64,000 nt of DNA from Leucobacter exalbidus (lineage in GTDB: Bacteria; Actinomycetota; Actinomycetes; Actinomycetales; Microbacteriaceae): NCBI RefSeq assembly GCF_017834145.1, contig NZ_JAFIDA010000001.1, positions 1,302,001-1,366,000 of the forward strand. The letters are read 5' to 3'. The notes under the pieces are model-generated. The model was not told the DNA's origin. It ran no database searches and saw only the letters and a program-made list of their open reading frames with translations. Shown here one piece after another: positions 36,534-61,067 of this stretch. A program made the position numbers and the translations under genes. Each line of letters opens with the position of its first letter. Positions within the stretch are counted from its first letter, which is position 1.

Positions 36534-36534
36534 G

Positions 36535-44527: not shown

Positions 44528-44536
44528 CACCTGCCA

Positions 44537-44565
44537 TAGTCGTATTTGTAGCCAATGGCTACGGT
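44537..44565 (+). promoter_or_regulatory. Promoter with operator GTAGCCAATGGCTAC upstream of the MHS transporter
   Basis: A perfect 15-bp palindrome at 44548-44562 lies between TAGTCG (44537-44542) and TACGGT (44560-44565), spacer 17 bp. The -35 is weaker than at the four sister sites. The minus strand carries TTGACG on the other side with a 16-bp spacer, so direction is less certain here. The leader to the transporter start is about 135 nt. Confidence 0.65.
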
Positions 44566-44707
44566 ACGTCAATGGAGCACGGCGTGACACCCGCCAGCTG
44601 ATCAACGCAGACCAGCGGTGCGGCGCAGCACCACATTGACAGGCTGCACGCAGCTCCAGTTTGACCCCCACACGCTTTAGAACGTCAGTGACAGAGAGGT
44701 CCCCGAC

Positions 44708-46096
44708 ATGACCACACAGCTAGCCCCAGCGCCATCCAACGCGTTAGTGCGAAAGGCGTCCATCGCGGGCGGCCTCGGCACCATCGTCGAGTCGTACGAC
44801 TTTTTCGTGTACACCTACCTCATCGTGTACACCGCTCCCCTCTTCTTCCCCGGCGAAGACCCGTTCGTCGCCATTCTGAGCTCCCTGCTCGTGCTCGGCA
44901 GCGGGTTTCTTGCCCGGCCGCTGGGCGGGCTGGTCTTTGGTCGCCTCGGCGACCGCAAGGGCCGCCGCTTCACGCTGATGCTCACCGTCATCAGCATGGG
45001 CGTTGTGACCTTCTGCATGGGCCTGTTGCCGACCTACGCCACGATTGGTATCGCGGCCCCGCTTGCGCTCGTGCTGCTGCGCCTCTTCCAGGGCTTCTCT
45101 GCGGGCGGTGAGCTCGCCGGATCGACCACCTTCGTGTCTGAGCACGCTGGCAAGGGCAACCACGGCTTCCTCAGTTCGATCACCCCGCTCGGCACCGCAT
45201 TCGGCGCCGCGCTGGCCCCCGGTGTCGTCGCACTGGTCACCCTGATTCTCTCTGAAGAGGTCATGCGCGAATGGGGTTGGCGCGTGCCGCTGCTGCTCTC
45301 GCTGCCACTCACCCTGGTCTGCCTGCTGCTACGCCTCGGGCTCGAAGATTCCCCCGAGTTTAAGCGTCTCGCCGCGGCCAAGACCGTCACCCGCTCCCCC
45401 GTGCGCGAGCTGCTCGTCGACTACTGGCGCCCGCTTTTGAAGGTCACCCTGCTGAGCGCAAGCGTGCTCATGATCGGCTACATCATCAACGCGTACGTGC
45501 CCCTCTTCTTGCAGCAGCAGGCCGGGTTCGAACCGGGCGCCACCGCCACCATGGCGTCGATCCAGGGTGTCTCGGCGATCGTGTTCACCATTGGCACCGC
45601 CCTCGTCATCGATAAGCTCGGCCGCCGCACCACGATGATCACGCTGATGGGCTGCATGGCACTCGCATTCTTGCCCGTGCTCATCATCATGAAGACCACC
45701 GATACGAACTTCTGGATCAGCGCGGCAGGCTTTGCACTGCTCGGCGGTCTCGGCGGCGCCATTGCCGCACCGGTGTACGCCTCACTCACCGCAGTGTTCC
45801 CTGCCCGGGTGCGTTACACCGGCGCAGCGCTCGGCTTCGGGCTCGGCGCGGCCATCGGTGGCGGCGCAGGCCCCGCTTTGGCAGCGCAGCTCACGCAGAG
45901 CTCGGGCAACCCCTACGCTGCGGCATACCTCGCGATCGCGGCCGCGCTGCTCGGCATCGTGTTTATGATCACGATTCCCAGCCGCGGCGTCGCCGATGAC
46001 GACGGCAAGATGGTCACGGGTGATGAGCCCGCTGCCGCCCAGCCCGCCGCAGATTCTCAGCAGACGCCGGTGCCCGTGGGGTCGCAGGCCCCGTAA
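44708..46096 (+). CDS. MHS-family metabolite:H+ symporter
   Basis: 462 residues, ~12 membrane segments. MHS features: GTIVESYDFFVYTYL in TM1, GRLGDRKGRRFTL after TM2, LLRLFQGFSAGGELAGSTTFVSEHA in TM4-5, and LGLEDSPEFKRL in the central loop. Such carriers import organic acids and related compounds. Its promoter carries the same operator as the Rieske/BVMO operons, so it is probably the importer for the compound they degrade. The C-terminal ~40 residues are hydrophilic. Confidence 0.88.
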   Translation: MTTQLAPAPSNALVRKASIAGGLGTIVESYDFFVYTYLIVYTAPLFFPGEDPFVAILSSLLVLGSGFLARPLGGLVFGRLGDRKGRRFTLMLTVISMGVVTFCMGLLPTYATIGIAAPLALVLLRLFQGFSAGGELAGSTTFVSEHAGKGNHGFLSSITPLGTAFGAALAPGVVALVTLILSEEVMREWGWRVPLLLSLPLTLVCLLLRLGLEDSPEFKRLAAAKTVTRSPVRELLVDYWRPLLKVTLLSASVLMIGYIINAYVPLFLQQQAGFEPGATATMASIQGVSAIVFTIGTALVIDKLGRRTTMITLMGCMALAFLPVLIIMKTTDTNFWISAAGFALLGGLGGAIAAPVYASLTAVFPARVRYTGAALGFGLGAAIGGGAGPALAAQLTQSSGNPYAAAYLAIAAALLGIVFMITIPSRGVADDDGKMVTGDEPAAAQPAADSQQTPVPVGSQAP

Positions 46097-46146
46097 CGGG
46101 CGCCGCTCCCCCGCTGGTCGTTCGCTGTTCGCTCGGAGTTCGCCCG

Positions 46147-46174
46147 TTGCACTCCACAATGAAAGTTGTATGGT
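46147..46174 (+). promoter_or_regulatory. Promoter of the TetR-like regulator, probably leaderless
   Basis: TTGCAC (46147-46152), 16-bp spacer, TATGGT (46169-46174). The expected transcription start falls at about 46181-46182, on the ATG itself. A short ACAA/TTGT dyad overlaps the spacer. Confidence 0.5.
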
Positions 46175-46181
46175 ATTGAAC

Positions 46182-47231
46182 ATGGTGCCCCCCGAATCTC
46201 GACCCGACCAGGCGACGCCCCTCCCGCAGAAAACTGCGGGAGGGGCGTCGTGGTCAACCCCAGAGGTCGTGGAATTTCTCGGTATCAGCCGGCAAGCGAT
46301 CAACCGGCGACTGCAGAACCGCAAGCTACTGGGGGCCCGCGCGCTCGGGGTCACCATGTTTCCGGTGTGGCAGTTCGATGCCGCGACGCACGAGGTGCGC
46401 CCCGAGCTCGCGCTGCTGCTCGCCGAAATCGATGACGGCGTCGATTTGGGCGCGGTGGCCACGTGGTCGACGACGTCAATCACCGGATCAGGCCGCACCC
46501 CAGGCGACCTCGTCGTCGACCCCGCGATGCAGTCGATCGCGCTGCAGCTCGCGCGTGACTTTGAACCGACGACCGGTGACGAAGACGCCGCCGACGCCGC
46601 ACAGCTTGAGGCGCAGGGCGCAGACCAGTTCACTGACCCGGCCGATGCCTCGGGCCCGCAGCGCGCCATCTTGCAGGCCGCCGCCGAGCTGTTTGTGTCG
46701 CGGGGACCTGGCAAGGTGACGCTGCGTGAAATCGCGGCCAAGGCCGACGTCACGTACGGCCTCATTCACCGGTTTTACGGCACCAAAGAGAACCTGCTCG
46801 TCGCGGTGATGCAGTCGCTCGTGAGCTCGGGTGGCGACCTACTCTCGGGTGAGCACGACATCTATAAGGCGCTCGATAACTCGTTTGGCGCCGACCTCGA
46901 TGCTGGCCAGTTCGGCCGCATGCTGGGCTGGGCTGTGTTCGAAGATACCCCGCCCGAGCGGCTGCTCGGCGGGGCCCGCTCAAGCGGGTACCGCAGCCAA
47001 ATTGACGCACTGTGGAATGATCCGGTGCCGCCGGAGGTGCCGGAGCAGTTCAGTTCGAACACCATGGCAGCCCTGATCGCGCTGATCGGTGCGGTGTGGA
47101 ACATTTACGAGCCGTACCTGAACGAGCTTGCCAAGCGCCCGGGCCACCCTGACCCGGTACCCAATCAGATGCGCCGCGAGGTCACCGACATGCTGAAGGT
47201 GCTGATCTACGCCACGCGCCCGAAGGAGTGA
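46182..47231 (+). CDS. TetR-like regulator with an extra N-terminal helix-turn-helix domain
   Basis: Start taken as ATG 46182 (MVPPESRPDQ), which matches a leaderless transcript; 46170 is the alternative. 349 residues. Residues ~25-90 hold a helix-turn-helix (STPEVVEFLGISRQAINRRL, LGVTMFPVWQFD) like that of MbcA/ParS-type antitoxin DNA-binding proteins. A linker follows, then a TetR DNA-binding domain (AILQAAAELFVSRGPGKVTLREIAAKADVTYGLIHRFYGTKENLL) and a TetR-type ligand domain. Downstream of the MHS transporter and adjacent to the cluster whose promoters share a palindrome; the likely regulator. Not a plain KstR2. Confidence 0.78.
   Translation: MVPPESRPDQATPLPQKTAGGASWSTPEVVEFLGISRQAINRRLQNRKLLGARALGVTMFPVWQFDAATHEVRPELALLLAEIDDGVDLGAVATWSTTSITGSGRTPGDLVVDPAMQSIALQLARDFEPTTGDEDAADAAQLEAQGADQFTDPADASGPQRAILQAAAELFVSRGPGKVTLREIAAKADVTYGLIHRFYGTKENLLVAVMQSLVSSGGDLLSGEHDIYKALDNSFGADLDAGQFGRMLGWAVFEDTPPERLLGGARSSGYRSQIDALWNDPVPPEVPEQFSSNTMAALIALIGAVWNIYEPYLNELAKRPGHPDPVPNQMRREVTDMLKVLIYATRPKE
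46213..46250 (+). other. Perfect 17-bp stem-loop within the 5' coding region of the regulator
   Basis: CGACGCCCCTCCCGCAG and its exact complement close an AAAA loop, 31-68 nt after the start codon. There is no T tract. It may repress translation or be a remnant terminator of the upstream transporter gene. Confidence 0.85.
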
Positions 47232-47256
47232 TCCGGGCGCAGCAACAGCCCCGGGT

Positions 47257-47303
47257 AACGAAATAATCCCTCGAGAGCGATACTCTCGAGGGATTATTTC
47301 GTT
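47257..47303. terminator. Bidirectional terminator, 21-bp perfect stem
   Basis: AACGAAATAATCCCTCGAGAG and its complement around CGATA, between the convergent regulator and alcohol dehydrogenase genes. A/T-rich outer stem gives T runs on both strands. Confidence 0.92.
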
Positions 47304-47331
47304 CGGGGTTCGTGCGGCCCGCAGGCCCGCG

Positions 47332-48405
47332 TTATGCGGCCGACATCACCAGCACCCCGCGATCGAGCCGGCCACCGAGGGCGTCGTCGACGAGGGTTTC
47401 GTAGTCGTCAAAGTCGTACTCCTTGGTAACGAGCTCATCAAGCAGCAGCTTGCCCGCCTGGTACAACTCGATGTATTTGAGCACGTCGACACCGGGGCGC
47501 GATGAGCCGTAGCGGCAGCCCAGCACCGAGCGATCCATGTAGAGCGCGCTCGCGAGCACCGACAGCTTCGTCTCGGGCCCGGCGACGCCCAGCATGATCA
47601 GCTGGCCGCCCCACGCCACCATTTCGATGGCCTGCGAGGTGATCGCTTCGCCGCCCACGCAGTCAAACACGTGGTTGGCGCCGTCCCCCGTGAGCTGCAG
47701 AATTGTCTCGACGGTGTTGCCCGCGAACGCGTCGACGAAGTGGGTCGCGCCGAACTCGCGCGCCTTCGCCTCTTTGTTCGTGTTCGTGTCGATCACGATG
47801 ATCTGCACCGCGCCGGCGATGCGGGCGGCCTGAATCACGTTCAGCCCGATCCCGCCAGCACCGATGACCACGACGGTCTCGCCCGCCTGCACCTTTGCGC
47901 GGTTAAACACGGCGCCCGCGCCGGTGAGCACCGCGCACCCAATCATGCACGCTGAAGTCAGCGGCACATCCTTGGGAATGGTGATCGCCTGCTGCGCACG
48001 CACCACCACCCGCTCGCTGAATGTGCCGAGCGTGGCGAAGTTATGAATCGCGGTGTCTTCGTGCTGAAACGGCGAACCGACCTTGCCGATTGATTCGCGG
48101 CACATCGTGGGATGCCCCGAGGCGCAGTGGCGGCAGTGCCCGCAGGTCGCGAGCGTGGCCAGCACGACGTGGTCGCCCACCGCAGGCGCGGTGACGCCCG
48201 GGCCGACCGCCTCGACGACGCCCGCGCCCTCGTGGCCGAGCACCACCGGGGTGGGGAACGGGATCTTGCCGTTCACGACGTTTAAATCGCTCTGGCACAC
48301 TCCGCTCGCGACGATGCGCACCAGCACATCGCCGGCACCGGGCTCACGCACGGTGACCCCGTCGACCAGCTTATTTTCGGCTCCGTCAAAAATGATCGCT
48401 TTCAA
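47332..48405 (-). CDS. Zinc-dependent alcohol dehydrogenase
   Basis: 357 residues, TTG start with GGGA 5 nt upstream. Catalytic zinc ligands Cys37 and His58-Glu59 (GHE), structural zinc cysteines Cys88, 91, 94 and 102, and NAD-binding VIGAGGIGLNVIQAA. Medium-chain class III/aryl-alcohol type. Last gene of the long minus-strand operon that begins with the Rieske oxygenase, so it may oxidise a hydroxyl to the ketone used by a Baeyer-Villiger enzyme, or an alcohol freed after lactone opening. Confidence 0.87.
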   Translation of the reverse strand: MKAIIFDGAENKLVDGVTVREPGAGDVLVRIVASGVCQSDLNVVNGKIPFPTPVVLGHEGAGVVEAVGPGVTAPAVGDHVVLATLATCGHCRHCASGHPTMCRESIGKVGSPFQHEDTAIHNFATLGTFSERVVVRAQQAITIPKDVPLTSACMIGCAVLTGAGAVFNRAKVQAGETVVVIGAGGIGLNVIQAARIAGAVQIIVIDTNTNKEAKAREFGATHFVDAFAGNTVETILQLTGDGANHVFDCVGGEAITSQAIEMVAWGGQLIMLGVAGPETKLSVLASALYMDRSVLGCRYGSSRPGVDVLKYIELYQAGKLLLDELVTKEYDFDDYETLVDDALGGRLDRGVLVMSAA

Positions 48406-48416
48406 GGCATTCCCTT

Positions 48417-50360
48417 TCAGTTGGAACCGACGCCGGCAAATTCAGCGCGTGCGGCCTCAGCCCGCGCGGTGAACTTGAAATCAGACTCTTGCAGTTTCTC
48501 GCACAGATCGAAGTATCGCTCGCCGCTCCACGGCGCGCCCATCTGCAATCGTCCAAATTCGTTCACGTAGTAGTTGCGCTTCATCGCTCCCACCTCTGAC
48601 AGGTAGATCAGCTTCTGAGCTTCTTCGTGCAGCTGATCGTTGTAGAGCGCAAACGCCTGCGGCGTGATCTCCATGGTGGCCTGATCGTTCTCGAGCATCG
48701 AGATGATGCCCTCGGCGATGTAGCGGCTCCAAATTTCGAACCACGACGGGAGCCCTGCGCCGCCCGTCACGGGCTGCGAGTTCGGGCCGTAAAGCATGAA
48801 CATATTGGGGAACCCGGGCACGGTCATGCCCAGGTGCGCCTGCGGCCCCTGCGCGGTCCACGCATCTTCGAGGCTGACCCCGCCTGCGCCGTAGAACTCG
48901 GTCGGCCAGACATACTTCTCGGTCTGAAAACCGACGGCCGCGATAATCAGGTCGACCTCACGCTCGGTGCCGTCAACGGTGGTCACGCCGTGCTGCGTGA
49001 TCTGCCCGATCTGGGTGGAGACGAGTTCAACGTTCTCGCGGGTGAGCGTGCCGTACCAGTTGTTATCAACGACGGGGCGGCGGGTCATCGGCGCGTAGTC
49101 GGGTACGAGCTGATCAATGAGATCTTGGCGTCCTCCCACCTGCTGCCCGATGTAGCCCACGAGTGACTTGCGCAGGGCGTCATTGCGTTTGCTGACCTGG
49201 CCGCCACCGGCGACCCAGTCTTGGTCGTGGAAAAGCACATTGCGCAGCTCGATCGAACCCATCGCGGCCGTGTACTTGTTCCAGTTCCAGTAGAACGGCA
49301 TCGTCTCGATGAGCCACTGCAGTTCTTCGGTTATCGGTTCACCGTAGTTCTCCCGCGGTGAGATCCACTGCGGGGTGCGCTGGTAGACCGTCACTGATTC
49401 GGCAGCCTCGGCCACCTTCGACAGCATCTGCACGCCCGTCGATCCGTTGCCGATCACGGCCACCTTCTTGCCGGCGAGTTCAACGCCGCCGTGCCACTGC
49501 GCGGTGTGCACAATCTCGCCGGTGAAGTTCTCGGCGCCCTCGAAGGGCAGGTCGCGCGGCTGCGCGAAGATGCCACTCGCCGGAACGACAACGTTCGCGT
49601 CAACCTCTGACACGGCGCCGCTGGCATCGCGCACCGTCAAATTCCACAACTGCGCCTCGTCGTTAAACCGGGCGACGGAGACGTTGCTGCCGAACTCGAT
49701 GTGTTCAAAGACGCCGTGCTTGCGCGCGACGTGCTCGACATAAGCGCGCACATCGGCCTGGCGGGCAAAGTATGCGGGCCACGGGTACTTCTTCTCAAAG
49801 CCGTACTCGTAGCTCGCGCTGAGCGTATCCACGCCAGCATCGGGGTACGTGTTGATGCTCCACACCCCGCCGACCTCTGCGCGGCGCTCAAAGATGGTGA
49901 AGGGAATGCCGAGGCGTGCCAGCTGCACGCCCATCGCGATGCCGCCGATACCGGCGCCAATGATGGCGACGCGGTATCCCTCTGGCACGGCAGACTCCCC
50001 CGACCATTCGGCCTGGAAAGGTACGCCCGAGAACGCGGGAATCGTGCGGCGCAGCGTCATCTGGCTGGGCGTAAATTCACGCGCCTCAAGCATGGCGACC
50101 AGCTCGTCAATTTCCTCACGGGTGGGCGTTTCAAGTTCTGCCTCGGGCGCGACACCCGCCGCCAAATATTCGACGGCCTTTGCACGAATGAGATCGGCGT
50201 CGACCTCTGAGATACTCACGGTGTCGGCGACGGGGCCGAACACGCGCTCGGGCGAAATCGCCCCAATCTCGGGGTCTCGAGTTGCCTGGAACAGCGCCAC
50301 TCGTAATGCGTTCAGATCGGCGCGCTGCACTGCGCGCTCGATAAAGCTTCGATCAGGCAT
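48417..50360 (-). CDS. Baeyer-Villiger monooxygenase, HAPMO-like with N-terminal extension
   Basis: Start set at ATG 50360, with GGAG 6 nt upstream; 647 residues. A ~125-residue helical N-terminal extension precedes the first Rossmann motif (GAGIGG, about residue 135). The fingerprint FTGEIVHTAQW and second Rossmann GNGSTG mark a type I FAD/NADPH Baeyer-Villiger enzyme. The extension and length resemble 4-hydroxyacetophenone monooxygenase. Inserts oxygen beside a carbonyl to give an ester or lactone. Follows the acyl-CoA ligase in the operon; the second such enzyme is at 61586. Confidence 0.87.
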   Translation of the reverse strand: MPDRSFIERAVQRADLNALRVALFQATRDPEIGAISPERVFGPVADTVSISEVDADLIRAKAVEYLAAGVAPEAELETPTREEIDELVAMLEAREFTPSQMTLRRTIPAFSGVPFQAEWSGESAVPEGYRVAIIGAGIGGIAMGVQLARLGIPFTIFERRAEVGGVWSINTYPDAGVDTLSASYEYGFEKKYPWPAYFARQADVRAYVEHVARKHGVFEHIEFGSNVSVARFNDEAQLWNLTVRDASGAVSEVDANVVVPASGIFAQPRDLPFEGAENFTGEIVHTAQWHGGVELAGKKVAVIGNGSTGVQMLSKVAEAAESVTVYQRTPQWISPRENYGEPITEELQWLIETMPFYWNWNKYTAAMGSIELRNVLFHDQDWVAGGGQVSKRNDALRKSLVGYIGQQVGGRQDLIDQLVPDYAPMTRRPVVDNNWYGTLTRENVELVSTQIGQITQHGVTTVDGTEREVDLIIAAVGFQTEKYVWPTEFYGAGGVSLEDAWTAQGPQAHLGMTVPGFPNMFMLYGPNSQPVTGGAGLPSWFEIWSRYIAEGIISMLENDQATMEITPQAFALYNDQLHEEAQKLIYLSEVGAMKRNYYVNEFGRLQMGAPWSGERYFDLCEKLQESDFKFTARAEAARAEFAGVGSN

Positions 50361-50375
50361 AGTGAGCTCCAATGC

Positions 50376-51983
50376 TTAATATGATGACATCTCGTGAACC
50401 GAGGTCGCGCTGTCTGCAGCGATCCGGTCGATGATTGATTGGCGCAGATGCTGCTTCCGAATTTTCATCGTCGGCGTCTTGGGCATCTCGGGCACAAACA
50501 CAATCTCTTGGGGGAACTTCGCCGGTGAAATTCCCGATTCCTTGCAGTAGTCGCGCATGTCTGAGACCTCAATCTCGGCAGCGTTTTCACCGAGCACGAC
50601 GACGGCGCAAATGCGTTCGCCTGCGCGCTCATCGGGCAGCCCAATCACAGCAACGTCGACGACGTCGGGGTGCGTCGCGATGACCTCTTCGATCTCGGCG
50701 GGGCTAATGGATTCGCCCTTTCGAATAATCAAGTCCTTCTCACGCCCCACGAGCACCAGGTACCCGTCGTCGCGCAGCTTGCCCAGGTCTCCCGTGAACA
50801 TCCATCCGCCCTCGTCGAAGGGGCGCACAATCTCGCCCTCCACCAGGTAGTGCTTGAATCGCATCGGACCGCGCAGCCACACCCGACCGACCTCGCCTGC
50901 GGCGAGCACCTCGTCTTCTTCCGAGCGAATCTGCACCTCGGCGCCCAGCACCGGGCCACCCGAGGTCGCGGCGAGCTGTTCGAGCGTGTCGCCCACGCGC
51001 GCCGCCGTAATCATCGGGCACTCGGTCATGCCGAACGCGTGCAGCACCGGCACACCAATCTCGGTGAGCACGTCGTTGAACAGCTGCTCAGACATCGGGG
51101 CACCGCCGCCGGCCAGCACACGCAGGGTGGGCACGACCGGGGTGTCAGGGTTCTTGCGCTGCATGTCGAGCAGCATCGAGTAGTGCGGGGTGGAGCCACC
51201 GGTGATGGTGACGCCGGTGCGATTCATCAGCTCGACCGCCGCATTGGGTTCGTACACCTCGAGGGTGACCAGCGGCATGCCGCTCGCAAATGATGCGATC
51301 AACATATCGGGGCCACCGATGTGCGCAAACGGGAACGCAATCGTGCCCACGTCTTTGGCGGTGGCCTCGAGTGACTCGGCGAGGGAAACCCCGCCCGCGA
51401 TCAGCGTGCCATCGGTGTGGCACACGCCCTTCGGCGCCGAGGTGGTGCCTGAGGTGGTGTAGATCCAGCGCACCGCATCGCGGTCACCGGGCACCACCGG
51501 CAGGGTGGCTACGTCGCCCTCGGGCAGGTCGCCCGCCAAGATCAGCAGTTCAAGTTTGTCGCCCAGCGACTCACGAATCTCGCGCGCCATCTCGGCGTGA
51601 TCGAAGCCACGAAACTCGGGGATCGTGATCAGCCACTGCGAACCGCACTGCTCAACCATTGAGGCCACTTCGCGCTTGCGGTACAGCGGAATGATCGGGT
51701 TTTGCACCGCGCCCAGGCGCGCCAGCGCCATGCTCAACACGATGGCGTCGATGCGGGTCGGCAGCTGCCAACTCACCACCGCGCCGGGGGTGATGCCGGC
51801 GCCATAGAGGCCAGCGGCAACGCGTTCAGATTTGGCGAGCAGCTCGGCAAAGGTGATGCTGGCGCCGTGTTCGTCGGTCACCGCGGCGGTGTCACCGGTG
51901 GCCTGCGCACGCAGCGTGAGCAGATCCCACAGTGACGTGGCGTCGTCGGAGTCGATATCCCAACCCAGTTCTACGGTCTTCAC
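50376..51983 (-). CDS. Acyl-CoA synthetase (AMP-forming)
   Basis: 535 residues, GTG start overlapping the previous stop (GTGA). AMP-binding motif YTTSGTTSAPKG, A5 motif FGMTECP, TGDLG and the C-terminal catalytic Lys region PKTPTMKIRKQHL. Resembles cyclohexanecarboxylate- and sterol-type ligases. It would activate a ring-derived acid for the two acyl-CoA dehydrogenases and hydratase in the same operon. It may also substitute for the FadD3 missing from the Ipd cluster; that is inference. Confidence 0.87.
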   Translation of the reverse strand: MKTVELGWDIDSDDATSLWDLLTLRAQATGDTAAVTDEHGASITFAELLAKSERVAAGLYGAGITPGAVVSWQLPTRIDAIVLSMALARLGAVQNPIIPLYRKREVASMVEQCGSQWLITIPEFRGFDHAEMAREIRESLGDKLELLILAGDLPEGDVATLPVVPGDRDAVRWIYTTSGTTSAPKGVCHTDGTLIAGGVSLAESLEATAKDVGTIAFPFAHIGGPDMLIASFASGMPLVTLEVYEPNAAVELMNRTGVTITGGSTPHYSMLLDMQRKNPDTPVVPTLRVLAGGGAPMSEQLFNDVLTEIGVPVLHAFGMTECPMITAARVGDTLEQLAATSGGPVLGAEVQIRSEEDEVLAAGEVGRVWLRGPMRFKHYLVEGEIVRPFDEGGWMFTGDLGKLRDDGYLVLVGREKDLIIRKGESISPAEIEEVIATHPDVVDVAVIGLPDERAGERICAVVVLGENAAEIEVSDMRDYCKESGISPAKFPQEIVFVPEMPKTPTMKIRKQHLRQSIIDRIAADSATSVHEMSSY

Positions 51984-52816
51984 GCTGAATCCTCCGATCT
52001 GGGCGTCACGCCGCGTGCCTCGCCAGCCTGCATCGGAGCCGCCCCGGGCACCAGCATCGGGTAGCCGGTGCGCAGCAGCGCATTGTTGTGACCGTGCCAG
52101 TGAATATCAAAGGCCGACTGCAGCGCAGCCTGCTGGCCCATGACGTCGAGGGTCTGGTTGACGGCGCGCTTGGCCATGGCGAGGCCCCACGCATCCATCT
52201 GCGAGATCTCGTGCGCGAGCTCCATGGTCTTTTCTTCGAGCTCGTCAACCGCCACCACGCGGTTCACCATGCCGGCGTCAAACGCCTCGGCCGCGCTGAA
52301 TGCGCGCGCCGTGAACAGCATCTCCTTAGCCCGGCGTGCACCAAGCTCCCACGTATGTGCGTGGTATTCGATGCCACCGACGCCGAACTTCACGACCGGA
52401 TCGCTGAACGAGGCGTTCTCGGCCGCCACAATGAGGTCGCACGGCCAGATCACATTAAGGGCGCCCGCGATGCACGCGCCCTGCACCGATGCGATCGACG
52501 GCTTGGGAATGTCACGCCAGCGGCGCGAGTACCCAAAGTAGTGCTCGGTCTCCCAGGCGTACGCGCTCTCGAGCGTGCTCTTGCCCTCTTTCAGGTAGCC
52601 CGATGCCGGCGTGTGCAGATCGTGGCCAGCTGAGAAGTGGTTGCCGTTGGCGCGCAGCACGATGACTTTGACGTCATCGTCGATCGCTGCCCGCTGCCAC
52701 GCGGCGTCGAGATCCTGCAGCATCGACTCGTCTTGAGCGTTGCGCTTCTCTGGCCGGTTCAACGAGATCACGGCGACGGCGCCGTCGACCTGGTAATCGA
52801 TGTAGCTCATAGTCAA
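51980..52816 (-). CDS. Enoyl-CoA hydratase/isomerase family protein
   Basis: 278 residues, overlapping both neighbours by 4 bp. Crotonase motifs NHFSAGHDLHTP and QGACIAGALNVIWPCD. Same long subtype as the protein at 40252 (GIEYHAHTWELGARRAKEMLF is the counterpart of GVEYFAHPWVTNPRAAKEMLY), so one probably arose from the other or both from a common ancestor. Hydrates the enoyl-CoA made by the adjacent dehydrogenases. Confidence 0.85.
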   Translation of the reverse strand: MTMSYIDYQVDGAVAVISLNRPEKRNAQDESMLQDLDAAWQRAAIDDDVKVIVLRANGNHFSAGHDLHTPASGYLKEGKSTLESAYAWETEHYFGYSRRWRDIPKPSIASVQGACIAGALNVIWPCDLIVAAENASFSDPVVKFGVGGIEYHAHTWELGARRAKEMLFTARAFSAAEAFDAGMVNRVVAVDELEEKTMELAHEISQMDAWGLAMAKRAVNQTLDVMGQQAALQSAFDIHWHGHNNALLRTGYPMLVPGAAPMQAGEARGVTPRSEDSA

Positions 52817-53907
52817 GCCCCCACGTAGATTCGGTCAAGAGCAGACACGATCTCGGCGTCGGTGTGCGCAGCCGATCCGAAGTCAAACTGCCAGCGTTTG
52901 GCAGCGTTAGTAAAGAGGTGCACGTTCGACTCGACCATGTACCCGATGCCCGCGTGCACCTCGTGCGCGCAGTGCACCATGTGGGTGGCGGTCTTGATGG
53001 CCTGCTTGTGCAGCAGCCCGAGGTGCGGCTGCGCATCGGCGCCCGCGTCGAGGGCCCCGGCCGCCGAGCGCACGTGCGCTGAGGTCAGATGCGCAGCGAC
53101 GGCGATGTCGGTGCACAGGTACTGCACCGCCTGGAAGCGACCGATCGGGCCACCAAACTGGTGACGCTGCTGCGCGTACAGCACCGTGATGTCGAGCAGT
53201 CGCAGCCCGGCACCGTAGACCTGGGCTGCGCGCAGCACCGAGCCGCGCTGCGAGGCCAGCTTGGCCGCGCGATCGGCGTCCGCCCCGCGGGCGAGCACGC
53301 TTTCGGCGGGCACGGCAACGTTTGCGAACGACAGCGCGAACACCTCGTGGTCGCCCATGTTCGACATGGGTTCCACGGTGACCGCGGCCCCGGCCTCGAC
53401 AACCGCCAGCACGTTCTCGGCACCGACCGCGTGCACGAGGAAGGCCTCTGCCTGGTCGGCGTAGCCGATGGCGAAGGCGGTGCCGTTCAGCACCCCGTTC
53501 TCGATCGTGAGACCGCCACCCCACTCTGATCCGGCAATCGCCGCATCAGGGAAGACGGGCAGCACGATCGCTTCGCCGTCACCGATGCGCTCGGCCAGTG
53601 CCGCCGCATGTTCAGAACCCGCGGCAAGCGCAGCATCGCGCGCCACGATCAGGTCGAGCAGCGGGGTGTCAGCGAGTGCGCGCCCCATCTCCACGAATAC
53701 CGCAGCGATTGTCGTCAGCGGCACGCCCTCATCGGCGGCCACGTTCGGGTCACTGAGCTGCAGCCAACCCAGCTCAGCGAACTGTGCGATCTGGTCTGCG
53801 AACGGAACGCTGTTGGTGCGTTCTTCCAACGGTGAGTAACGCACGAATGCCGACTTGCTGACGTCTACGAGGGCGTCAAAATCTTCACCCCAAGCCAATT
53901 CCATCAT
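52813..53907 (-). CDS. Acyl-CoA dehydrogenase-like, divergent partner subunit
   Basis: 364 residues, AAGGA 6 nt upstream. Fold recognisable from YAQQRHQFGGPIGRFQAVQYLCTDIAVA and HEVHAGIGYMVESNVHLF, but the central flavin-binding region is degenerate. It sits directly after a full-length dehydrogenase, the arrangement of heteromeric (alpha2beta2) steroid dehydrogenases. Likely the non-catalytic partner. Confidence 0.78.
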   Translation of the reverse strand: MMELAWGEDFDALVDVSKSAFVRYSPLEERTNSVPFADQIAQFAELGWLQLSDPNVAADEGVPLTTIAAVFVEMGRALADTPLLDLIVARDAALAAGSEHAAALAERIGDGEAIVLPVFPDAAIAGSEWGGGLTIENGVLNGTAFAIGYADQAEAFLVHAVGAENVLAVVEAGAAVTVEPMSNMGDHEVFALSFANVAVPAESVLARGADADRAAKLASQRGSVLRAAQVYGAGLRLLDITVLYAQQRHQFGGPIGRFQAVQYLCTDIAVAAHLTSAHVRSAAGALDAGADAQPHLGLLHKQAIKTATHMVHCAHEVHAGIGYMVESNVHLFTNAAKRWQFDFGSAAHTDAEIVSALDRIYVGA

Positions 53908-53916
53908 TATGATTCC

Positions 53917-55074
53917 TTATCTCGACAGACCGAGGCCTCGCGTAGCGAGCACCATTCGTTTGAGCTGTGACGTGCCGCCAGCGTGGTTGGCAAATGACTG
54001 CCGGTACCAGGCCTCGGGCTTGCCGCCCATGGGGGCCAGCTTGGAGTCCGAGCGCAACTGGCTCGTCGGGCCGAGCACGCGATCAAAGATCTGCGCAAAC
54101 AGCGGCTCGTATTCTTTCGCGGCAATCTGCTGCACGCCGCCGCCCCACGGGGTCTGGCGGCCTGCGGCGTTATCGCCAATGATTTCGTAGGCCATCAGTC
54201 GCTGCGACTGCACGATGCCCGCGAGTTCAGCGAGGTCGGCCTGCACGCGCGGATCCTCGAGCTTGCCGGGAATCTGCTTGCAGTATGCGACGAGCTCACG
54301 CAGGCGTGACTCTTGCATCGCGTAGATCGGCTCGACCGTTCCCGATGCGTAGAAAGCGCGCATGATGTACTTCCAGCCCATGCCGGCCTCGCCGATCAGC
54401 GAGCTGCTGGACACTCTGACGTGGTCAAGGTACGTCGTTGACTGCACACCGCCACCGTAGTTGCGCATGGGGTGCAGCGTGACGCCCTCGCTCTTGAGAT
54501 CCACGAGGAAGATGCTGATCGCATCGTTGCGGCCGTCTTCGGCGCCGGTGCGGGCGGCGACGTACAGCACATCAGACATCGGGCCCCAGGAGGTGAAGGC
54601 CTTCTGGCCGGTGATGATCCAGTCGTCACCGTCTTGCACGGCCTTGGTCTTGAGCGAACCAAGGTCTGATCCGGCTTCGGGTTCAGTGAGGCCCTCGGCC
54701 CACAGCGTGTTCATGCTCGCGATCTCGGGCAGCAGGCGCTGCTTCTGCTCTTCAGAGCCACCGACCAAAATCGTGCCGGCCGCGAGGAAGATGCCGACCG
54801 AGTTGATGATCGGCGCATCTGCGGCGTACATCTCTTCAAGGAAGATCTGATTCGCAACGGGGGTGAGCCCCTTGCCTCCATATTCCTTGGGCCAGGTCAG
54901 GCCGATCCAGCCCTTCGCGGCGACCTTCTTGCTGAATTCAACGGCGATCGCCCACTGCTCGGGGGCGTCATCAAACTCGGGGTTGAATGCGTGGTCTGCG
55001 GGCAGCTCGGCGTCAAGAAACGCTCGGATCTCTGCACGCCAGGCTTCGTTTTCTGTTCCCAGATCGGTGCGCAT
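53917..55074 (-). CDS. Acyl-CoA dehydrogenase, full length
   Basis: 385 residues; the ATG overlaps the Rieske gene stop (TAATG). Complete fold: WAEGLTEPEAGSDLGSLKTKAV, DDWIITGQKAFTSWGPMSDVLY, C-terminal SFANHAGGTSQLKRMVLATRGLGL. The last segment differs from the GGxxEIQ of the FadE30 and FadE31 types. Uses FAD to introduce an alpha,beta double bond into an acyl-CoA; probable partner is the gene at 52813. Confidence 0.85.
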   Translation of the reverse strand: MRTDLGTENEAWRAEIRAFLDAELPADHAFNPEFDDAPEQWAIAVEFSKKVAAKGWIGLTWPKEYGGKGLTPVANQIFLEEMYAADAPIINSVGIFLAAGTILVGGSEEQKQRLLPEIASMNTLWAEGLTEPEAGSDLGSLKTKAVQDGDDWIITGQKAFTSWGPMSDVLYVAARTGAEDGRNDAISIFLVDLKSEGVTLHPMRNYGGGVQSTTYLDHVRVSSSSLIGEAGMGWKYIMRAFYASGTVEPIYAMQESRLRELVAYCKQIPGKLEDPRVQADLAELAGIVQSQRLMAYEIIGDNAAGRQTPWGGGVQQIAAKEYEPLFAQIFDRVLGPTSQLRSDSKLAPMGGKPEAWYRQSFANHAGGTSQLKRMVLATRGLGLSR

Positions 55075-56120
55075 TATGCCCCCTGCTCAAGTAGCTCGTC
55101 GGTGCCTGCGGTCTGTTCTGCGGCGCCTGAGCCGTGGTGGCCCTCGGCGTAGAACCTGCGGGCCCACTGACGAATATCGCGGAAGCCTGCGGCCTCGGCG
55201 GTCGCGAGCCCGGGAGGCTCCGTGTAGCGCTGGTACTTCCAGATATCGAGGTCAGCGCGCAGCTGACCGATCGCGCTGCGCTGGCGCTTGGCGACGCGCA
55301 CGTCGTCTTCGCCTTCTTCGATAGAGGCCCACGCGGTGAAGCGCAGAATCGAGTTCTCGTCATCGATGGGAGTGACCGAGGTGATGCTGCAGATGCCGCC
55401 GGCACCGTAGGCGTACGAGAAGCCGAGGCCCAGGCCGAGCAGGTAGGCGTTGGTACGGCCGTCGACCGATTCGAGTTCGCCGTCAGCCTTACGTCGCTTG
55501 AACTCCAGCGCCAGCTCAGACTGGAACGTGTACTCGCCAAACTCGCGGCTGAGCACAGTCGGAATTTCGTCTGCGCGGTGCACGTACTTGAAGTGGGCGA
55601 AGTCGACGCCGTTCTCAGCCGCGTACTGCGGGTGGATCGGCAGGGGCTCGGCTTCGAAGCGGCCGCCCGTGGTCGCGGGGTCGTGGTACTGCTCGGGGCC
55701 GCCTGAGTCTTTGAACAGTTCGAAGACGCTGGGCACCTCGTAATGGGGCTTGCCGCCGTCGACGTTGTGCCACAGGTACATCAGGCCGTCGCGCTCGGCG
55801 ACGTGCCAGGTGCCGATGCGGCGCACGCGGTTCACGGTGGCCTGGTAGGGGATCTCGGTGTTGCGGCCGGCCGCGTTCCACTTCCATGCGTGGAAGGGGC
55901 ACTGGATGTCTTCGCCGCAGACCTTGCCGCCGTACGCCATGTTGGCGCCGAGGTGTTCGCAGTACGCATTCAAGACGACAAGTTTGCCGCTCTCGGTGCG
56001 AAACAGCACGAGATCACGACTGAACACATTAAGCGGCTTCACCGCACCGTTTTCCAGATCGCTTGACCAGCCGATTTGGAACCAGCCTGTCGGTTGCATT
56101 GAGAGCGCCATTGATGCCAA
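55074..56120 (-). CDS. KshA-like Rieske non-heme iron oxygenase
   Basis: 348 residues, TTG start with AGGAGG 6 nt upstream; ATG 56111 is the alternative. Rieske cluster ligands C54-x-H56 and C74-x2-H77 (CEHLGAN...CPFHAWKW). The mononuclear iron site includes NGVDFAHFKYVH (Asp173, His176, His181). The layout resembles KshA, the oxygenase of 3-ketosteroid 9-alpha-hydroxylase, though it is ~40 residues shorter than the mycobacterial protein. The KshB-like reductase at 58689 shares its operator and is the likely electron donor. First gene of a seven-gene operon to 47332. Substrate unproven. Confidence 0.82.
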   Translation of the reverse strand: MASMALSMQPTGWFQIGWSSDLENGAVKPLNVFSRDLVLFRTESGKLVVLNAYCEHLGANMAYGGKVCGEDIQCPFHAWKWNAAGRNTEIPYQATVNRVRRIGTWHVAERDGLMYLWHNVDGGKPHYEVPSVFELFKDSGGPEQYHDPATTGGRFEAEPLPIHPQYAAENGVDFAHFKYVHRADEIPTVLSREFGEYTFQSELALEFKRRKADGELESVDGRTNAYLLGLGLGFSYAYGAGGICSITSVTPIDDENSILRFTAWASIEEGEDDVRVAKRQRSAIGQLRADLDIWKYQRYTEPPGLATAEAAGFRDIRQWARRFYAEGHHGSGAAEQTAGTDELLEQGA

Positions 56121-56223
56121 CTTGATCCTCCTTTAGATCGAGCGGCCGGCGCGCACGCACGGCCGCTGACGGAATACGTGAGCACACCCCCGTTGGTGTA
56201 CCCGATATACCGTAACTAAGCCC

Positions 56224-56252
56224 AGTGTAGCCAGCGGCCACATCTGCGTCAA
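56224..56252 (-). promoter_or_regulatory. Promoter and operator of the Rieske operon
   Basis: Minus strand TTGACG (56247-56252), 17-bp spacer, TACACT (56224-56229). The operator GTGGCCGCTGGCTAC (56227-56241) fills the spacer and reaches into the -10. An 11-bp inverted repeat, CTGCGTCAACC/GGTTGACGCAG (56244-56271), overlaps the -35. Confidence 0.8.
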
Positions 56253-56325
56253 CCCCGCAAGGTTGACGCAGAAAAACTTTTCAGATCACACAATTGATCA
56301 GGGATTTACCTGATTTCATTTCCCA

Positions 56326-56354
56326 TTGACGCGGGTGTGGCCAGTGACTACACT
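56326..56354 (+). promoter_or_regulatory. Promoter and operator of the SDR-hydrolase operon
   Basis: TTGACG (56326-56331), 17-bp spacer, TACACT (56349-56354); operator GTGGCCAGTGACTAC at 56337-56351. The ATG at 56364 lies only ~9 nt after the -10, implying a leaderless mRNA. Confidence 0.8.
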
Positions 56355-56363
56355 ATGGAACCC

Positions 56364-57170
56364 ATGACCCAAATCAATCCAGACGCGATACCCGCGTACC
56401 CCCAGCTGCTCCGCCTCGACGGGCGCAACATTGTGGTGATCGGGGCCGGCCAAGGGATGGGGCGCCAAACCAGCCACGCCCTCGCGCAGTGCGGCGCGAC
56501 CGTCATCTGCGTCGATATCAACGATGAGCTCGCCCGCACCGTCGCGAACGAGGTGGGCGGCATCGCGTGGGTGGGTGACGTCACCCAGGCCGACGAAGTC
56601 GATCGCCTGATCAGCGAAACGGTCGCCCAGATCGGCGGGCCACTGAACGGTCTAGTCGATATTGTCGGCATGGCGGCATGGTCGCCGGCCATCGATCTTG
56701 AAGAGCACACCTGGGATGCGCAGTTCGATATCTGCCTGAAGCACGCCTACCTGCTGGGCTCGCGCGTCGGCCGCCACCTCGTCGATGCGGGCGCCGGCGG
56801 CAGCATGGTGTTCATCGCCTCGGTGCACGGCCTCACGGCCTCAGTGCGCCACGGTGCGTACGGCGCCGCGAAGGCCGGCCTGATTTCGTGGGTAAAAACC
56901 CTCGCCAACGAGCTGGGTGACGACGGCATCAGGGTGAACGCGGTCGCCCCCGGATCAATCCTCACCCCGCGCATTCTCGCCGCGGGCAGCGCCGAAATTC
57001 GCGAGCAGGCCGCCAACATCGCGCCGCTGCGCCGCAACGGCCTCCCCCAAGACGTGGCCTCAGCCCTCCTCTTCCTCACCAGCGATCTCTCCGCGTTCAT
57101 CACCGGCCAAACACTCGCCGTCGATGGCGGCGTCTCGATCGCCGACCCCTTTGAAAGGTTGCTCTTTTGA
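56364..57170 (+). CDS. Short-chain dehydrogenase/reductase
   Basis: Start set at ATG 56364 (MTQINPDAIP); the upstream codons lie inside the promoter. 268 residues. Cofactor motif IGAGQGMGRQTSHAL, acidic residue VDIND after beta-2 favouring NAD, catalytic Ser and Tyr-Lys in FIASVHGLTASVRHGAYGAAKAG. Probably oxidises a ring hydroxyl to the ketone needed for Baeyer-Villiger attack. Overlaps the hydrolase gene by 4 bp. Confidence 0.85.
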   Translation: MTQINPDAIPAYPQLLRLDGRNIVVIGAGQGMGRQTSHALAQCGATVICVDINDELARTVANEVGGIAWVGDVTQADEVDRLISETVAQIGGPLNGLVDIVGMAAWSPAIDLEEHTWDAQFDICLKHAYLLGSRVGRHLVDAGAGGSMVFIASVHGLTASVRHGAYGAAKAGLISWVKTLANELGDDGIRVNAVAPGSILTPRILAAGSAEIREQAANIAPLRRNGLPQDVASALLFLTSDLSAFITGQTLAVDGGVSIADPFERLLF

Positions 57171-58042
57171 CAAACACTCCCCCCACCACGCCGCAAAGCT
57201 CACTGCCCGCGCTGCGCCCAAGCGTGCTCGCGACGTCCCAAACGCTGCTGGATCGGCGGGCCCGGGTCGCGCTTGCCCCGGCTTTGGTTCCGGATCCACG
57301 CACGACCGTCGAAGAGCACCGCTTCGGCGGCGTGCGTTGCCTGTCGTTCGCCGCCCCCGAAGCCTCGGGCACCATCATCTATCTGCACGGCGGCGGCTAC
57401 CGGCTCGGGTCGCCCGAGTTGTTTGCTCCGTTCGCCGAACGGCTGGCGCACGCCACCGGGCAGCGCGTGATCGCCGTTGATTACCGCCTCGCCCCCGAGC
57501 ATCCGTTCCCGGCCGGGCTGCACGATGCCCTCGACGTCTACCGTGAGATTGCGCAGGCCACCGGCAGCGCGCCCGCGCTCATCGGCGATTCGGCCGGCGG
57601 CGGGCTCGCCGCCTCGCTCGCGCTCGCCTGCGCGCAGCAGCAGCTCCCCGCCCCGCGCGCGGTCGTGCTGTTGTCGGGCTGGGTCGATCTGAGCTGCACC
57701 GCAGAAAGTTACCAGTCGCGCGCCGACACCGATCAGCTGTTCTCGTACGCCGATGCGAGCGAGGCCGCGGCGCAGTATCTGCAGGGGTGGCCGGCCGCCG
57801 ACCCGTTCGCGTCGCCCGCGCTGGCCGATCTCACCGAGTTTCCGCCGACGCTGCTGTTTGGCAGCACCGACGAGGCCGTGCTCGACGACACCCTCGCCAT
57901 GACCCGGGCGCTGGCACGCGCGGGGCGCCCGGTGCAGGCGGAGCTGCGCCCGGGGCTGCCGCACGCCTGGCCCACCACTGATCCGGGCAACGCAGAAACA
58001 GCGGCCACCCTGGGCACGATCGCCGCGTTCCTCGCGGCGTAA
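57167..58042 (+). CDS. Alpha/beta hydrolase, HSL family
   Basis: 291 residues, TTG start with AAAGG 8 nt upstream. Oxyanion-hole motif HGGGYRLGS, nucleophile elbow GDSAGGG, a DEAVLDD segment with the catalytic Asp and GLPHAWPT with the His. Hormone-sensitive-lipase-like esterases hydrolyse esters and lactones, so opening of a Baeyer-Villiger lactone fits. Coupled to the SDR and controlled by the shared operator. Confidence 0.85.
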   Translation: MTNTPPTTPQSSLPALRPSVLATSQTLLDRRARVALAPALVPDPRTTVEEHRFGGVRCLSFAAPEASGTIIYLHGGGYRLGSPELFAPFAERLAHATGQRVIAVDYRLAPEHPFPAGLHDALDVYREIAQATGSAPALIGDSAGGGLAASLALACAQQQLPAPRAVVLLSGWVDLSCTAESYQSRADTDQLFSYADASEAAAQYLQGWPAADPFASPALADLTEFPPTLLFGSTDEAVLDDTLAMTRALARAGRPVQAELRPGLPHAWPTTDPGNAETAATLGTIAAFLAA

Positions 58043-58052
58043 TTCGCGCGGG

Positions 58053-58685
58053 CTACTCGGCCCCGCCCCACGCCGCCACGAGCTCTGCGGTCGTGGGGGT
58101 GGGGCCGAGCGGCCGCAGGGTGTGCTGCAGCACCTGTTCGCCGTACTCGGTGGGCACGCCGATGACGCCGTCGCGCACGACCGCGATCTTGTAGCCCAGG
58201 TTGATCGCTTCATTCGCGGTGCCCGGCACCCCGAGGTTCAGTGACACCCCGCCGATCACGACGGTGCGCACGCCGAGCGCACGCAGCGCCGCGTCAAGAT
58301 CGGTGCCAGTAAACGCCGACATTCCGTGCTGCCGCACCGAGACGATGTCTGCTGGCTGCGGGGTGAGCTGGGCGATCACTTCGGCCCCCGGGGTGCCCTC
58401 TACGATGCGGTTGGGATCGATTTTGCGGTGCACCGCGAAGGTCGGGTTATTGATCGGGGTCGTCGCCCAGTCGGCGCGAAAGCGCGCAACGGCGTGCACC
58501 ACGCGAATCCCCGATCGCCGCGCGGCATCGGCCAGCTCGGCCAAGCGCGATGCGATCTGGTGAGATTCCACCGCGGTCGTCAGCGGTGCGAGCATGGGGC
58601 CCGCGCAGTCGCCCACGACGCCGCGCTGCATCTCGATGATCACCACGGCCGTGTGCTCGGGGGCCGCCAGCTCGCCGAGTTCCAC
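58053..58685 (-). CDS. Isochorismatase-like protein lacking the usual catalytic triad
   Basis: 210 residues, GTG start, 3 bp after the reductase stop. Fold markers: TAVVIIEMQRGV, SAFTGTDLDAALRALGVRTVVIGGVSLNLGVPGTANEAINLGY. The Asp-Lys-Cys triad of cysteine hydrolases in this fold appears as Glu18, Gln119 and Gly152. The Gly matches true isochorismatases (EntB, PhzD), but Asp and Lys are also changed. It could hydrate or hydrolyse a vinyl ether or amide by another mechanism, or have lost activity. Confidence 0.75.
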   Translation of the reverse strand: MELGELAAPEHTAVVIIEMQRGVVGDCAGPMLAPLTTAVESHQIASRLAELADAARRSGIRVVHAVARFRADWATTPINNPTFAVHRKIDPNRIVEGTPGAEVIAQLTPQPADIVSVRQHGMSAFTGTDLDAALRALGVRTVVIGGVSLNLGVPGTANEAINLGYKIAVVRDGVIGVPTEYGEQVLQHTLRPLGPTPTTAELVAAWGGAE

Positions 58686-58688
58686 GGG

Positions 58689-59801
58689 TTAACCGAACGA
58701 GATTTCGACCTTGGTTGACCGGGGGCGCGACTGGCAGCCGAGCACGTAGCCGTCGTCGATGTCTTCTTGGTCGAGGGCTTCTGAGGGCGCCATGTTCACC
58801 TCGCCGCTCACGACGTGGCAGGCGCACGAACCGCACTCACCCGACTTGCACGAGTAGGGCACGTTGATGCCCTTGCTCAACAGCACGTCGACCAGGGTGC
58901 GCTCAGCGGGCCATTCGACCTCGTGGGTTTCGCCCTCGAGGTGGATGGTGGCCTGCGTGGCGGGCTGGTCGCTCGCGGCATCGGCATCAACTTCGGGCTC
59001 TTCGACAACTTCGAAGGGGTTGCCGGTGAGTGAGCTAAAGACCTCGCGGTGAATCTGCGCCGAGGTAAATCCTGCGGCTTTGAGACCCTCGACCACCGTG
59101 TTCATGAAGGGCGGTGGGCCACACAGGTAAGCGTCGGCGCCAGCGTGTGCGCCGGCGACCCCCACAATGCGTTCCACGTCAGCGAAGCCGTGCTCGCTGT
59201 CGTACCAGTGTTGCACCTCCACCCGCTCGGGGTGGCGCGCCTGCAGCTCGCTGAGCTCCTGGTCAAAAATCACCGAGGAGGCGTCGCGGTTGGCGTAGTA
59301 GAGCACGATCTTGCCGGTGCCCTCTTGCAGCGAAGTCTTCAGAATCGAGATCACCGGGGTGATGCCGCTGCCCGCGGCGAACAGCAGCAGGTCGGCGTTC
59401 GGGTTGCGCACCACGAAGGTGCCCGCCGGCGGCAGCACCGTGACGCGGTCGCCCGCGCGAACGTTGTCGCACACCCAGTTCGAGCCGTAGCCCTCGGGAA
59501 TGCGCTTCACCGTCACCTTGAGGTGGTTATCGATCACGGGAGAGCTTGAGAGCGAGTATGACCGGGCCACCGATCCCGTGAGATCGCTCGGAATGCGCAG
59601 CGTCAGAAACTGGCCTGAGCGGTAGCGGCAGCGGTCAGCGAGTTCGGCGGGAATCTCGAATACGATGGAGTGCGCCTCGGTGGTTTCCTCGATGACGTCA
59701 ATGACGTGCAGCTCGATGGGTCCCACCGCAACCGGCTCGGCGGGTGCCTGTGCATTGAGCTCGACGGATCCCCCGACGATCGGTTCGGACGTTAGCAGCA
59801 T
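58689..59801 (-). CDS. KshB-like oxygenase reductase (FAD/NAD and plant-type [2Fe-2S])
   Basis: 370 residues, AGAGGAG 5 nt before ATG. FAD site RSYSLSS, NAD site GSGITPVISILK and YLCGPPPFMNTVVEGL, then a C-terminal plant-type ferredoxin with CKSGECGSCAC and a distant CQSR. The sequence resembles M. tuberculosis KshB throughout (GQFLTLRIPSDLTGSVARSYS; YANRDASSVIF). An acidic linker (residues ~270-290) joins the two halves. Transfers electrons from NADH to the Rieske oxygenase at 55074. Confidence 0.88.
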   Translation of the reverse strand: MLLTSEPIVGGSVELNAQAPAEPVAVGPIELHVIDVIEETTEAHSIVFEIPAELADRCRYRSGQFLTLRIPSDLTGSVARSYSLSSSPVIDNHLKVTVKRIPEGYGSNWVCDNVRAGDRVTVLPPAGTFVVRNPNADLLLFAAGSGITPVISILKTSLQEGTGKIVLYYANRDASSVIFDQELSELQARHPERVEVQHWYDSEHGFADVERIVGVAGAHAGADAYLCGPPPFMNTVVEGLKAAGFTSAQIHREVFSSLTGNPFEVVEEPEVDADAASDQPATQATIHLEGETHEVEWPAERTLVDVLLSKGINVPYSCKSGECGSCACHVVSGEVNMAPSEALDQEDIDDGYVLGCQSRPRSTKVEISFG

Positions 59802-59892
59802 GGGGGCTCCTCTTCATTGGGGATTGCGTCACCGTAGCTCGGCCAAACACCTCAGTGTGCCCGAAAGCCGTCTGCGGTGGCTTACGAGCACT

Positions 59893-59921
59893 ACTGTAGC
59901 CAGTGGCCACTTTTGCGTCAA
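59893..59921 (-). promoter_or_regulatory. Promoter and operator of the kshB-like operon
   Basis: Minus strand TTGACG (59916-59921), 17-bp spacer, TACAGT (59893-59898); operator GTGGCCACTGGCTAC at 59896-59910. Confidence 0.8.
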
Positions 59922-59964
59922 CCCAAGAGTGAAAATCTACGGCGCGCCTCCCCAAAGAGAACTA

Positions 59965-59993
59965 TTGACGCAGACGTAGCCACTGGCTACAGT
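59965..59993 (+). promoter_or_regulatory. Promoter and operator of the cyclase-VOC-BVMO operon
   Basis: TTGACG (59965-59970), 17-bp spacer, TACAGT (59988-59993); the perfect palindrome GTAGCCACTGGCTAC spans 59976-59990. The leader to the TTG start at 60146 is about 145 nt. Confidence 0.82.
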
Positions 59994-61036: not shown

Positions 61037-61067
61037 CTCCATGTCTGAACCAACGAAGGATATCAAC

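Follow-up and report, generated by a model that had tools for sequence, protein, structure and literature searches.

The closest described counterparts of the locus treated here are regulons controlled by TetR-family repressors. The KstR2 regulon is governed by a TetR-family repressor whose palindromic operators, with the 14 bp motif AnCAAGnnCTTGnT, lie between divergently read genes of a catabolic cluster, its own promoter region included (PMC3068626); the ipd pathway is the subject of a further paper (PMC5380842). The BkaR regulon is local and autoregulatory, with repeated palindromes (core GTTA(N)T(N4)A(N)TAAC) bound by a dimer at branched-chain keto-acid genes, and occlusion of the promoter by the dimer, relieved by a ligand, is the ordinary mode of TetR repressors (PMC3920632). 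Mce3R, a TetR-type repressor of genes linked to cholesterol metabolism, holds a second DNA-binding unit in the same chain, another TetR domain, and its operator is nonpalindromic (PMC11667970). The subject of this report is a locus of Leucobacter exalbidus in which five copies of a 15 bp palindrome, GTAGCCAnTGGCTAC (core TAGCCAnTGGCTA), accompany genes for a Rieske oxygenase, Baeyer-Villiger-type monooxygenases and transport. The locus lies in a stretch of 64,000 nucleotides (the window), positions 1302001-1366000 of a single-contig 3.18-Mb genome; coordinates below are those of the window unless marked otherwise.

The proposal is that the TetR-family product of 46182-47231 uses the five palindromes as its operators and acts as the ligand-released repressor of a local regulon; on the sequence evidence this reading is given a probability of about three in four. 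The locus shares with the KstR2 and BkaR systems a TetR-family regulator gene and palindromes repeated at promoters of a local gene cluster, and it differs from them in its operator and in its genes: here the KstR2 motif goes with ipd/fadE genes and not with the Rieske/Baeyer-Villiger set, and the BkaR core and keto-acid genes are those of another regulon. Like Mce3R, the candidate has an additional unit in its chain, whereas here that unit is a small N-terminal stretch. The earlier note on this DNA knew of no published regulator with this site, and none with this operator was found among the papers listed by the literature searches, which leaves absence unproven. The locus is a probable local repressor regulon, a credible new instance of a widespread type of gene switch.

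A palindrome built into divergent promoters

All five copies reported earlier are present at the coordinates given there. Palindrome 1, GTAGCCAATGGCTAC (44548-44562), lies ahead of an MFS transporter gene and matches GTAGCCAnTGGCTAC without mismatch. Palindromes 2 (56227-56241) and 3 (56337-56351), each with 2 mismatches, lie within TTGACG-17-TACACT elements on the minus strand (56252-56224) and the plus strand (56326-56354), respectively. Palindromes 4 (59896-59910, 1 mismatch) and 5 (59976-59990, 0 mismatches) lie within TTGACG-17-TACAGT elements, again on the minus (59921-59893) and plus (59965-59993) strands. Four palindromes are therefore locked into TTGACG-17-TACA[CG]T promoters that form two divergent pairs, with dyads 110 bp apart (56227/56337) and 80 bp apart (59896/59976). 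The spacer, hexamers and pairing described in the earlier note hold, but its placement of the four dyads exactly between the hexamers does not: the dyad starts 5 bp past the -35 and ends with the TAC that opens the -10, so that it supplies the first half of that hexamer.

The same note placed each palindrome upstream of a transcription unit, which is borne out for the four in unit promoters and, as regards its position ahead of the MFS gene, for palindrome 1; yet the latter lies outside any transporter-directed TTGACG-17 promoter. It is found just downstream of a promoter-like TGGACA-17-CATAGT (44512-44540, plus strand, from a consensus scan only) that would start near it, which puts the dyad at the expected transporter start site. 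On the minus strand, palindrome 1 also falls in a TTGACG-16-TACAAA element that would read away from the transporter gene. Two further inverted repeats were noted in these intergenic regions. One, GCGGCGGGGAT / ATCCCCGCCGC (44488-44527), follows an acyl-CoA dehydrogenase-like gene and overlaps the putative transporter -35; the other, a perfect 12 bp repeat TCTGCGTCAACC / GGTTGACGCAGA with a 6-nt loop (56243-56272), consists of two facing -35-like elements and lies within the divergent region.

The sites are clustered and, in their promoter setting, rare. With up to 2 mismatches to GTAGCCAnTGGCTAC the window holds the five sites, whereas 200 second-order Markov simulations averaged 0.115 and never reached 5; with up to 3 mismatches it holds 7, against a shuffle mean of 1.73, and the two additional matches (53461 and 61022, both at 3 mismatches) are treated as chance. 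A weight matrix built from the five sites scores them at 19.7-25.3, as follows by construction; what does not follow from construction is the gap to the runner-up, which scores 10.3 in the window and 10.2 in the following 20 kb. Across the genome, 5 of the 13 places matching with up to 2 mismatches lie within 15.4 kb (simple Poisson estimate ~1e-8). Seven of the remaining 8 lie inside mechanical open frames of at least 127 codons, and the eighth (L005) is in a short gap separating two minus-strand frames. This last place, GTAGCCCATGGCTAC at genome position 1773596, was considered as a sixth site and is taken as chance; the upstream reading frame ends with its TTGACT.

The combined element is rarer still. 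Perfect matches to TTGACG-N5-GTRGCCNNNGRCTAC number four in the whole genome, each of them in this cluster, and the next-best match (genome position 1879546, 1 mismatch) lies inside a 362-codon frame. A slightly different promoter-operator form was found four times in this genome and in none of 165 other genomes of the class, and its reversed control was not found in this genome. A promoter scan of 46050-60200 gave 7 promoter-like places against a shuffle mean of 1.5, four of them being the TTGACG-17-TACA[CG]T elements that carry the palindromes. As in local TetR-repressor regulons, one palindrome is thus shared by several promoters near a regulator gene, and operator and promoter overlap as far as geometry goes.

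Over the 29 bp element the two promoters are 83% complementary in one divergent pair and 90% in the other, a likeness that would also arise had promoter cassettes been copied by recombination and kept for promoter strength, with no regulator involved. That origin is highly improbable. By eye the similarity ends at the promoter ends, a near-perfect dyad between the hexamers is unnecessary for promoter strength, palindrome 1 stands outside the TTGACG-17 setting in the reading direction, and the spacing is different in the Embleya locus described below.

The candidate regulator and its relatives

The product of 46182-47231 (plus strand; 349 residues) carries a TetR helix-turn-helix at residues 163-209 (Pfam TetR_N, 1.7e-14; 53.7 bits against a cut-off of 24), preceded by ~150 extra N-terminal residues. 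An alignment-free structure model of the protein shows helices in the C-terminal part, but at a mean pLDDT of 44, too low to rely on. No other regulator gene was recognised inside the controlled block. The regulator was found in its own genome only, out of 299 genomes of the family, 396 of the phylum and 54 of the genus; for the family and the phylum just a few candidates per genome were scored.

The TetR half has relatives elsewhere. A plasmid of Embleya sp. NBC_00888 encodes a TetR-type protein of 204 residues that is 33-35% identical over the TetR half and is without the N-terminal part. In its neighbourhood TTAGCCAATGGCCAA and TTAGCCATTGGCTAA lie 80 bp apart, the spacing of 59896/59976, between open reading frames read as divergent genes. 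The shared core, TAGCCAnTGGCTA, was taken as a prediction beforehand and then checked on a closer homologue of the Embleya protein. Such a homologue, 71% identical, was found in genome G1110, the single hit among 200 genomes of the family of G321, which would be Embleya's family; it is likewise the only one of 3 genomes of its genus with a relative. No relative was found in 35 genomes of the family of G779, an empty result that carries no weight. A perfect TTAGCCATTGGCTAA / core lies 3.2 kb upstream of the G1110 tetR gene, and none of 500 simulations gave such a match at 0 mismatches. In both Embleya and G1110 the core stands beside TTGACT, ~3 kb upstream of the respective tetR gene, and an alignment of the two shows TTGACTT and GGATTAGCCATTGGCTAA kept while the surroundings, and with them the second Embleya palindrome, have not been kept.

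The three proteins have V[TN]YGLIH in the recognition helix in common, including the shared stretch YGLIH, whereas all 10 other TetR matches (own protein excluded) have FGLVY or HGLV[YF] there. Neighbourhoods of nine of these ten genes were fetched, one on a short contig being left out, and no core match at up to 1 mismatch was found in any of the nine. One of them (L055) has two core matches at 2 mismatches. In that neighbourhood a TAGTCA-based inverted repeat occurs twice, at a distance of 26 bp, near its TetR gene (L055:9555-9594), perhaps as that regulator's own operators. By sequence alone, a regulator has apparently been paired with its probable operator across two actinobacterial families.

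The ~150 residue N-terminal part raises the question of which half of the protein would read the palindrome. It bears a weak resemblance to HTH_17 (0.029, below cut-off), and its sole relative in a named record (L015), which matches residues 15-74 only, touches the Xre-MbcA-ParS middle-domain model PF23125 at 0.0018, also below cut-off. No Xre/MbcA/ParS-type Pfam domain was found above cut-off in the regulator itself, and the N-terminal part matched no sequence in the PDB at E up to 10. The palindrome was also encountered in viral contigs, 3 stretches of which have the promoter-operator form and 24 of which have TGTAGCCAnTGGCTACA; of the latter a single one, L085, has a second copy within 150 bp, at up to 3 mismatches. 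In L085 (2015-2310) the two tandem TGTAGCCAnTGGCTACA-like palindromes lie upstream of a gene pair for a ParE-like toxin and an HTH_3 protein, an Xre-type toxin-antitoxin locus. The palindrome alone therefore does not name a protein class, since such a pair carries it, and the regulator's own N-terminal part may take part in recognition. Another viral contig, of the promoter-operator set, has two similar palindromes 35 bp apart with 1 and 2 mismatches (L086:10028-10077).

That the N-terminal part reads the palindrome in place of the TetR half, as these sub-threshold resemblances and the HTH_3 locus would allow, is nonetheless quite improbable. The Embleya relative, at 204 versus 349 residues, is without that part and still has the palindrome in its neighbourhood, which makes the TetR half the likelier reader; the G1110 relative also appears to be without it, its upstream open frame being overlapped by another gene. 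A two-headed repressor is a doubtful but somewhat less remote proposal: the TetR half would sit on the GTAGCCAnTGGCTAC dyads and an Xre/MbcA-like N-terminal head would contact DNA or protein, for example bridging the operators 80 and 110 bp apart or coupling another signal. Such a protein would head a small and scattered TetR subgroup with V[TN]YGLIH, sharing TAGCCAnTGGCTA.

A proposed ligand-released switch and the evidence weighed

The reading preferred here, operators of the TetR-family protein, corresponds to what the earlier note had suggested, a local regulon in which the product of 46182-47231 occludes RNA polymerase, and the related TetR genes accompanied by the TAGCCAnTGGCTA core in Embleya and G1110 lend that suggestion support. 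From the sites and their geometry, clustering and rarity, and from the co-occurrence with related TetR genes in two genomes, we infer binding, repression and an inducer along the following lines. A TetR dimer at GTAGCCAnTGGCTAC would cover the spacer and the first three bases of the -10 at the four promoters of the two divergent pairs and so block binding of RNA polymerase, and at 44548 it would sit on the expected transporter start site. A substrate or intermediate of the cluster, bound in the ligand pocket of the TetR protein, would lift repression from all five units at once, and with it from uptake, ring oxygenation, Baeyer-Villiger steps, hydrolases, CoA activation and beta-oxidation.

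Several observations weigh against this reading. The bare motif is not enriched across the genome, where GTAGCCAnTGGCTAC with up to 2 mismatches has 13 places against 25 for the pattern read backwards, and bare-motif enrichment was rejected as evidence on that ground. The genome-wide search proposed in the earlier note returned five clustered matches of the 13 without an excess of the word itself; in its promoter setting the motif is not equally common elsewhere, though the bare motif shows no enrichment. The signal is clustering and promoter geometry, not word frequency. With up to 1 mismatch allowed, 0.6% of simulations attained the G1110 count; with up to 2, 13% did. Being related, the loci of Embleya and G1110 are not two fully independent cases, and they carry other enzymes. 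Their palindromes have an outermost T...A, not G...C, and their TTGACT lies 9-10 bp away, against 5 bp in the window; the window matrix scores these sites at 12.3-14.2, below a chance site at 15.6 in a control neighbourhood (L053). The toxin-antitoxin locus of L085, with its two palindromes, belongs here as well. Finally, there is no palindrome directly before tetR. Palindrome 1 heads the MFS-tetR direction, as autoregulation would have it, yet a TTGCAC-16-TATGGT read from the sequence ahead of tetR (46147-46174, plus strand), followed after 7 further bases by the ATG, is a possible second, palindrome-free promoter, from which the repressor may also be made independently of the operator.

Genes of the cluster and a probable neighbouring KstR2-type regulon

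The transporter gene (44708-46096, plus strand) encodes a metabolite/H+ symporter-like protein (Pfam MFS_1, 7.6e-36; TIGR00883, 2.7e-103, under its cut-off) and would form one unit with tetR, judging, here as for the other units, from the open reading frames. The seven genes presumed to be under palindrome 2 (47332-56120, minus strand) encode a Rieske KshA-like oxygenase, two acyl-CoA dehydrogenases, an enoyl-CoA hydratase, a CoA ligase, a Baeyer-Villiger-type monooxygenase and a zinc alcohol dehydrogenase, four of the seven families being assigned by profile or structure match and the two dehydrogenases and the hydratase from sequence only. The unit under palindrome 3 (56364-58042, plus strand; open reading frames and Pfam) comprises a short-chain dehydrogenase/reductase and an alpha/beta hydrolase. 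A fitting start of the former is the ATG at 56364, 9 bases past the -10, with another in-frame ATG at 56355; from 56364 its mRNA would be nearly leaderless. An FAD/2Fe-2S reductase and an isochorismatase-like hydrolase make up the unit under palindrome 4 (58053-59801, minus strand; open reading frames and Pfam). Under palindrome 5 follow a cyclase-family hydrolase, for which the true start is uncertain, a VOC protein and a second Baeyer-Villiger-type monooxygenase (59993-63439, plus strand; open reading frames and family assignments), in a unit that probably runs on beyond 64000.

The Rieske protein has a KshA_C domain, and its best solved, though distant, relative is the 3-ketosteroid 9alpha-hydroxylase KshA (9.8e-31). 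Relatives of the Rieske protein occur in 27 other genomes out of 394, at up to 46% identity, and in 20 plasmid records. The one plasmid neighbourhood read, that of Rhodococcus DMU1 (L057), contains no core match, even with 2 mismatches allowed. The Rieske gene and the regulator look jointly acquired, since neither has a match in 53 other genomes of the genus.

The flanking ipd/fadE genes seem to be controlled separately, as part of a KstR2-type regulon. In the 20 kb after the window (L078) a TetR gene on the minus strand (L078:4262-4873) matches solved KstR2 at 1.6e-44. With 1 mismatch allowed, AnCAAGnnCTTGnT occurs 6 times in that stretch, where chance would give 0.20 on average; two of the six are exact, at 4899 beside the KstR2-like gene and at 16175. 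A second CoA-transferase-like gene pair adjoins the KstR2-type gene by eye, with KstR2-like motifs near (L078:2537-16188). Within the window, copies of AnCAAGnnCTTGnT with 1-2 mismatches lie between the ipd/fadE genes (32855, 32878 and 40196); together with the set in L078 they probably mark a ring-degradation regulon of its own. The CoA-transferase gene at 33697 has a match at 5e-78 among solved structures, an alpha subunit that we take to be IpdA. In all, the window has 24 AnCAAGnnCTTGnT matches when 2 mismatches are allowed; chance gives 16 on average, and 3 of 100 shuffles reached 24, a modest excess. None of the 24 falls in the promoter regions of the five palindromes, and the palindromes were ruled out as KstR2 sites on that account. 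The KstR regulon, the motif of which we take to be TnnAACnnGTTnnA, was rejected as well: at 1 mismatch the window has 11 matches against a chance mean of 8.6, none of them in the five promoters, and the nearest (44735) lies inside the transporter frame.

These neighbours bear on whether another regulator reads the palindromes: the KstR2-like TetR or an IclR-like protein, both encoded 4-11 kb past the window end, in L078, the product of a LysR-type gene at 15262, or a protein from elsewhere. LysR boxes have the loose form T-N11-A, which TAGCCAnTGGCTA fits; the IclR- and LysR-type names were given from sequence by eye, with no family search behind them. Such a reader is unlikely. The co-occurrence with related TetR genes in other genomes points to the protein of 46182-47231, and the KstR2-like protein has a motif of its own, AnCAAGnnCTTGnT, which is absent from the five promoters (motif from PMC3068626). 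The palindrome regulon thus seems to be bounded by the KstR2-type one.

Elsewhere in the window are two rRNA operons in the same orientation, ~13 kb apart (3881-9202 and 17264-22585). Noted by eye were a minus-strand open reading frame for a highly repetitive Arg/Asp-rich protein (1400-3772) and short direct repeats of GGTTCCGGATCAAACCAGATA downstream of a nitronate monooxygenase-like gene (36400-36540).

The analysis delivers five sites along with one candidate repressor and ~16 presumed target genes. Should the binding prove real, the inducer would reveal the substrate of the cluster, which may be guessed, from genes of the KshA and ipd type, to be steroid- or terpenoid-like; the pairs of repressor and promoter might then find use as a sensor. 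The locus suggests that a KstR2-type regulon and a different TetR regulon stand side by side in one catabolic region.

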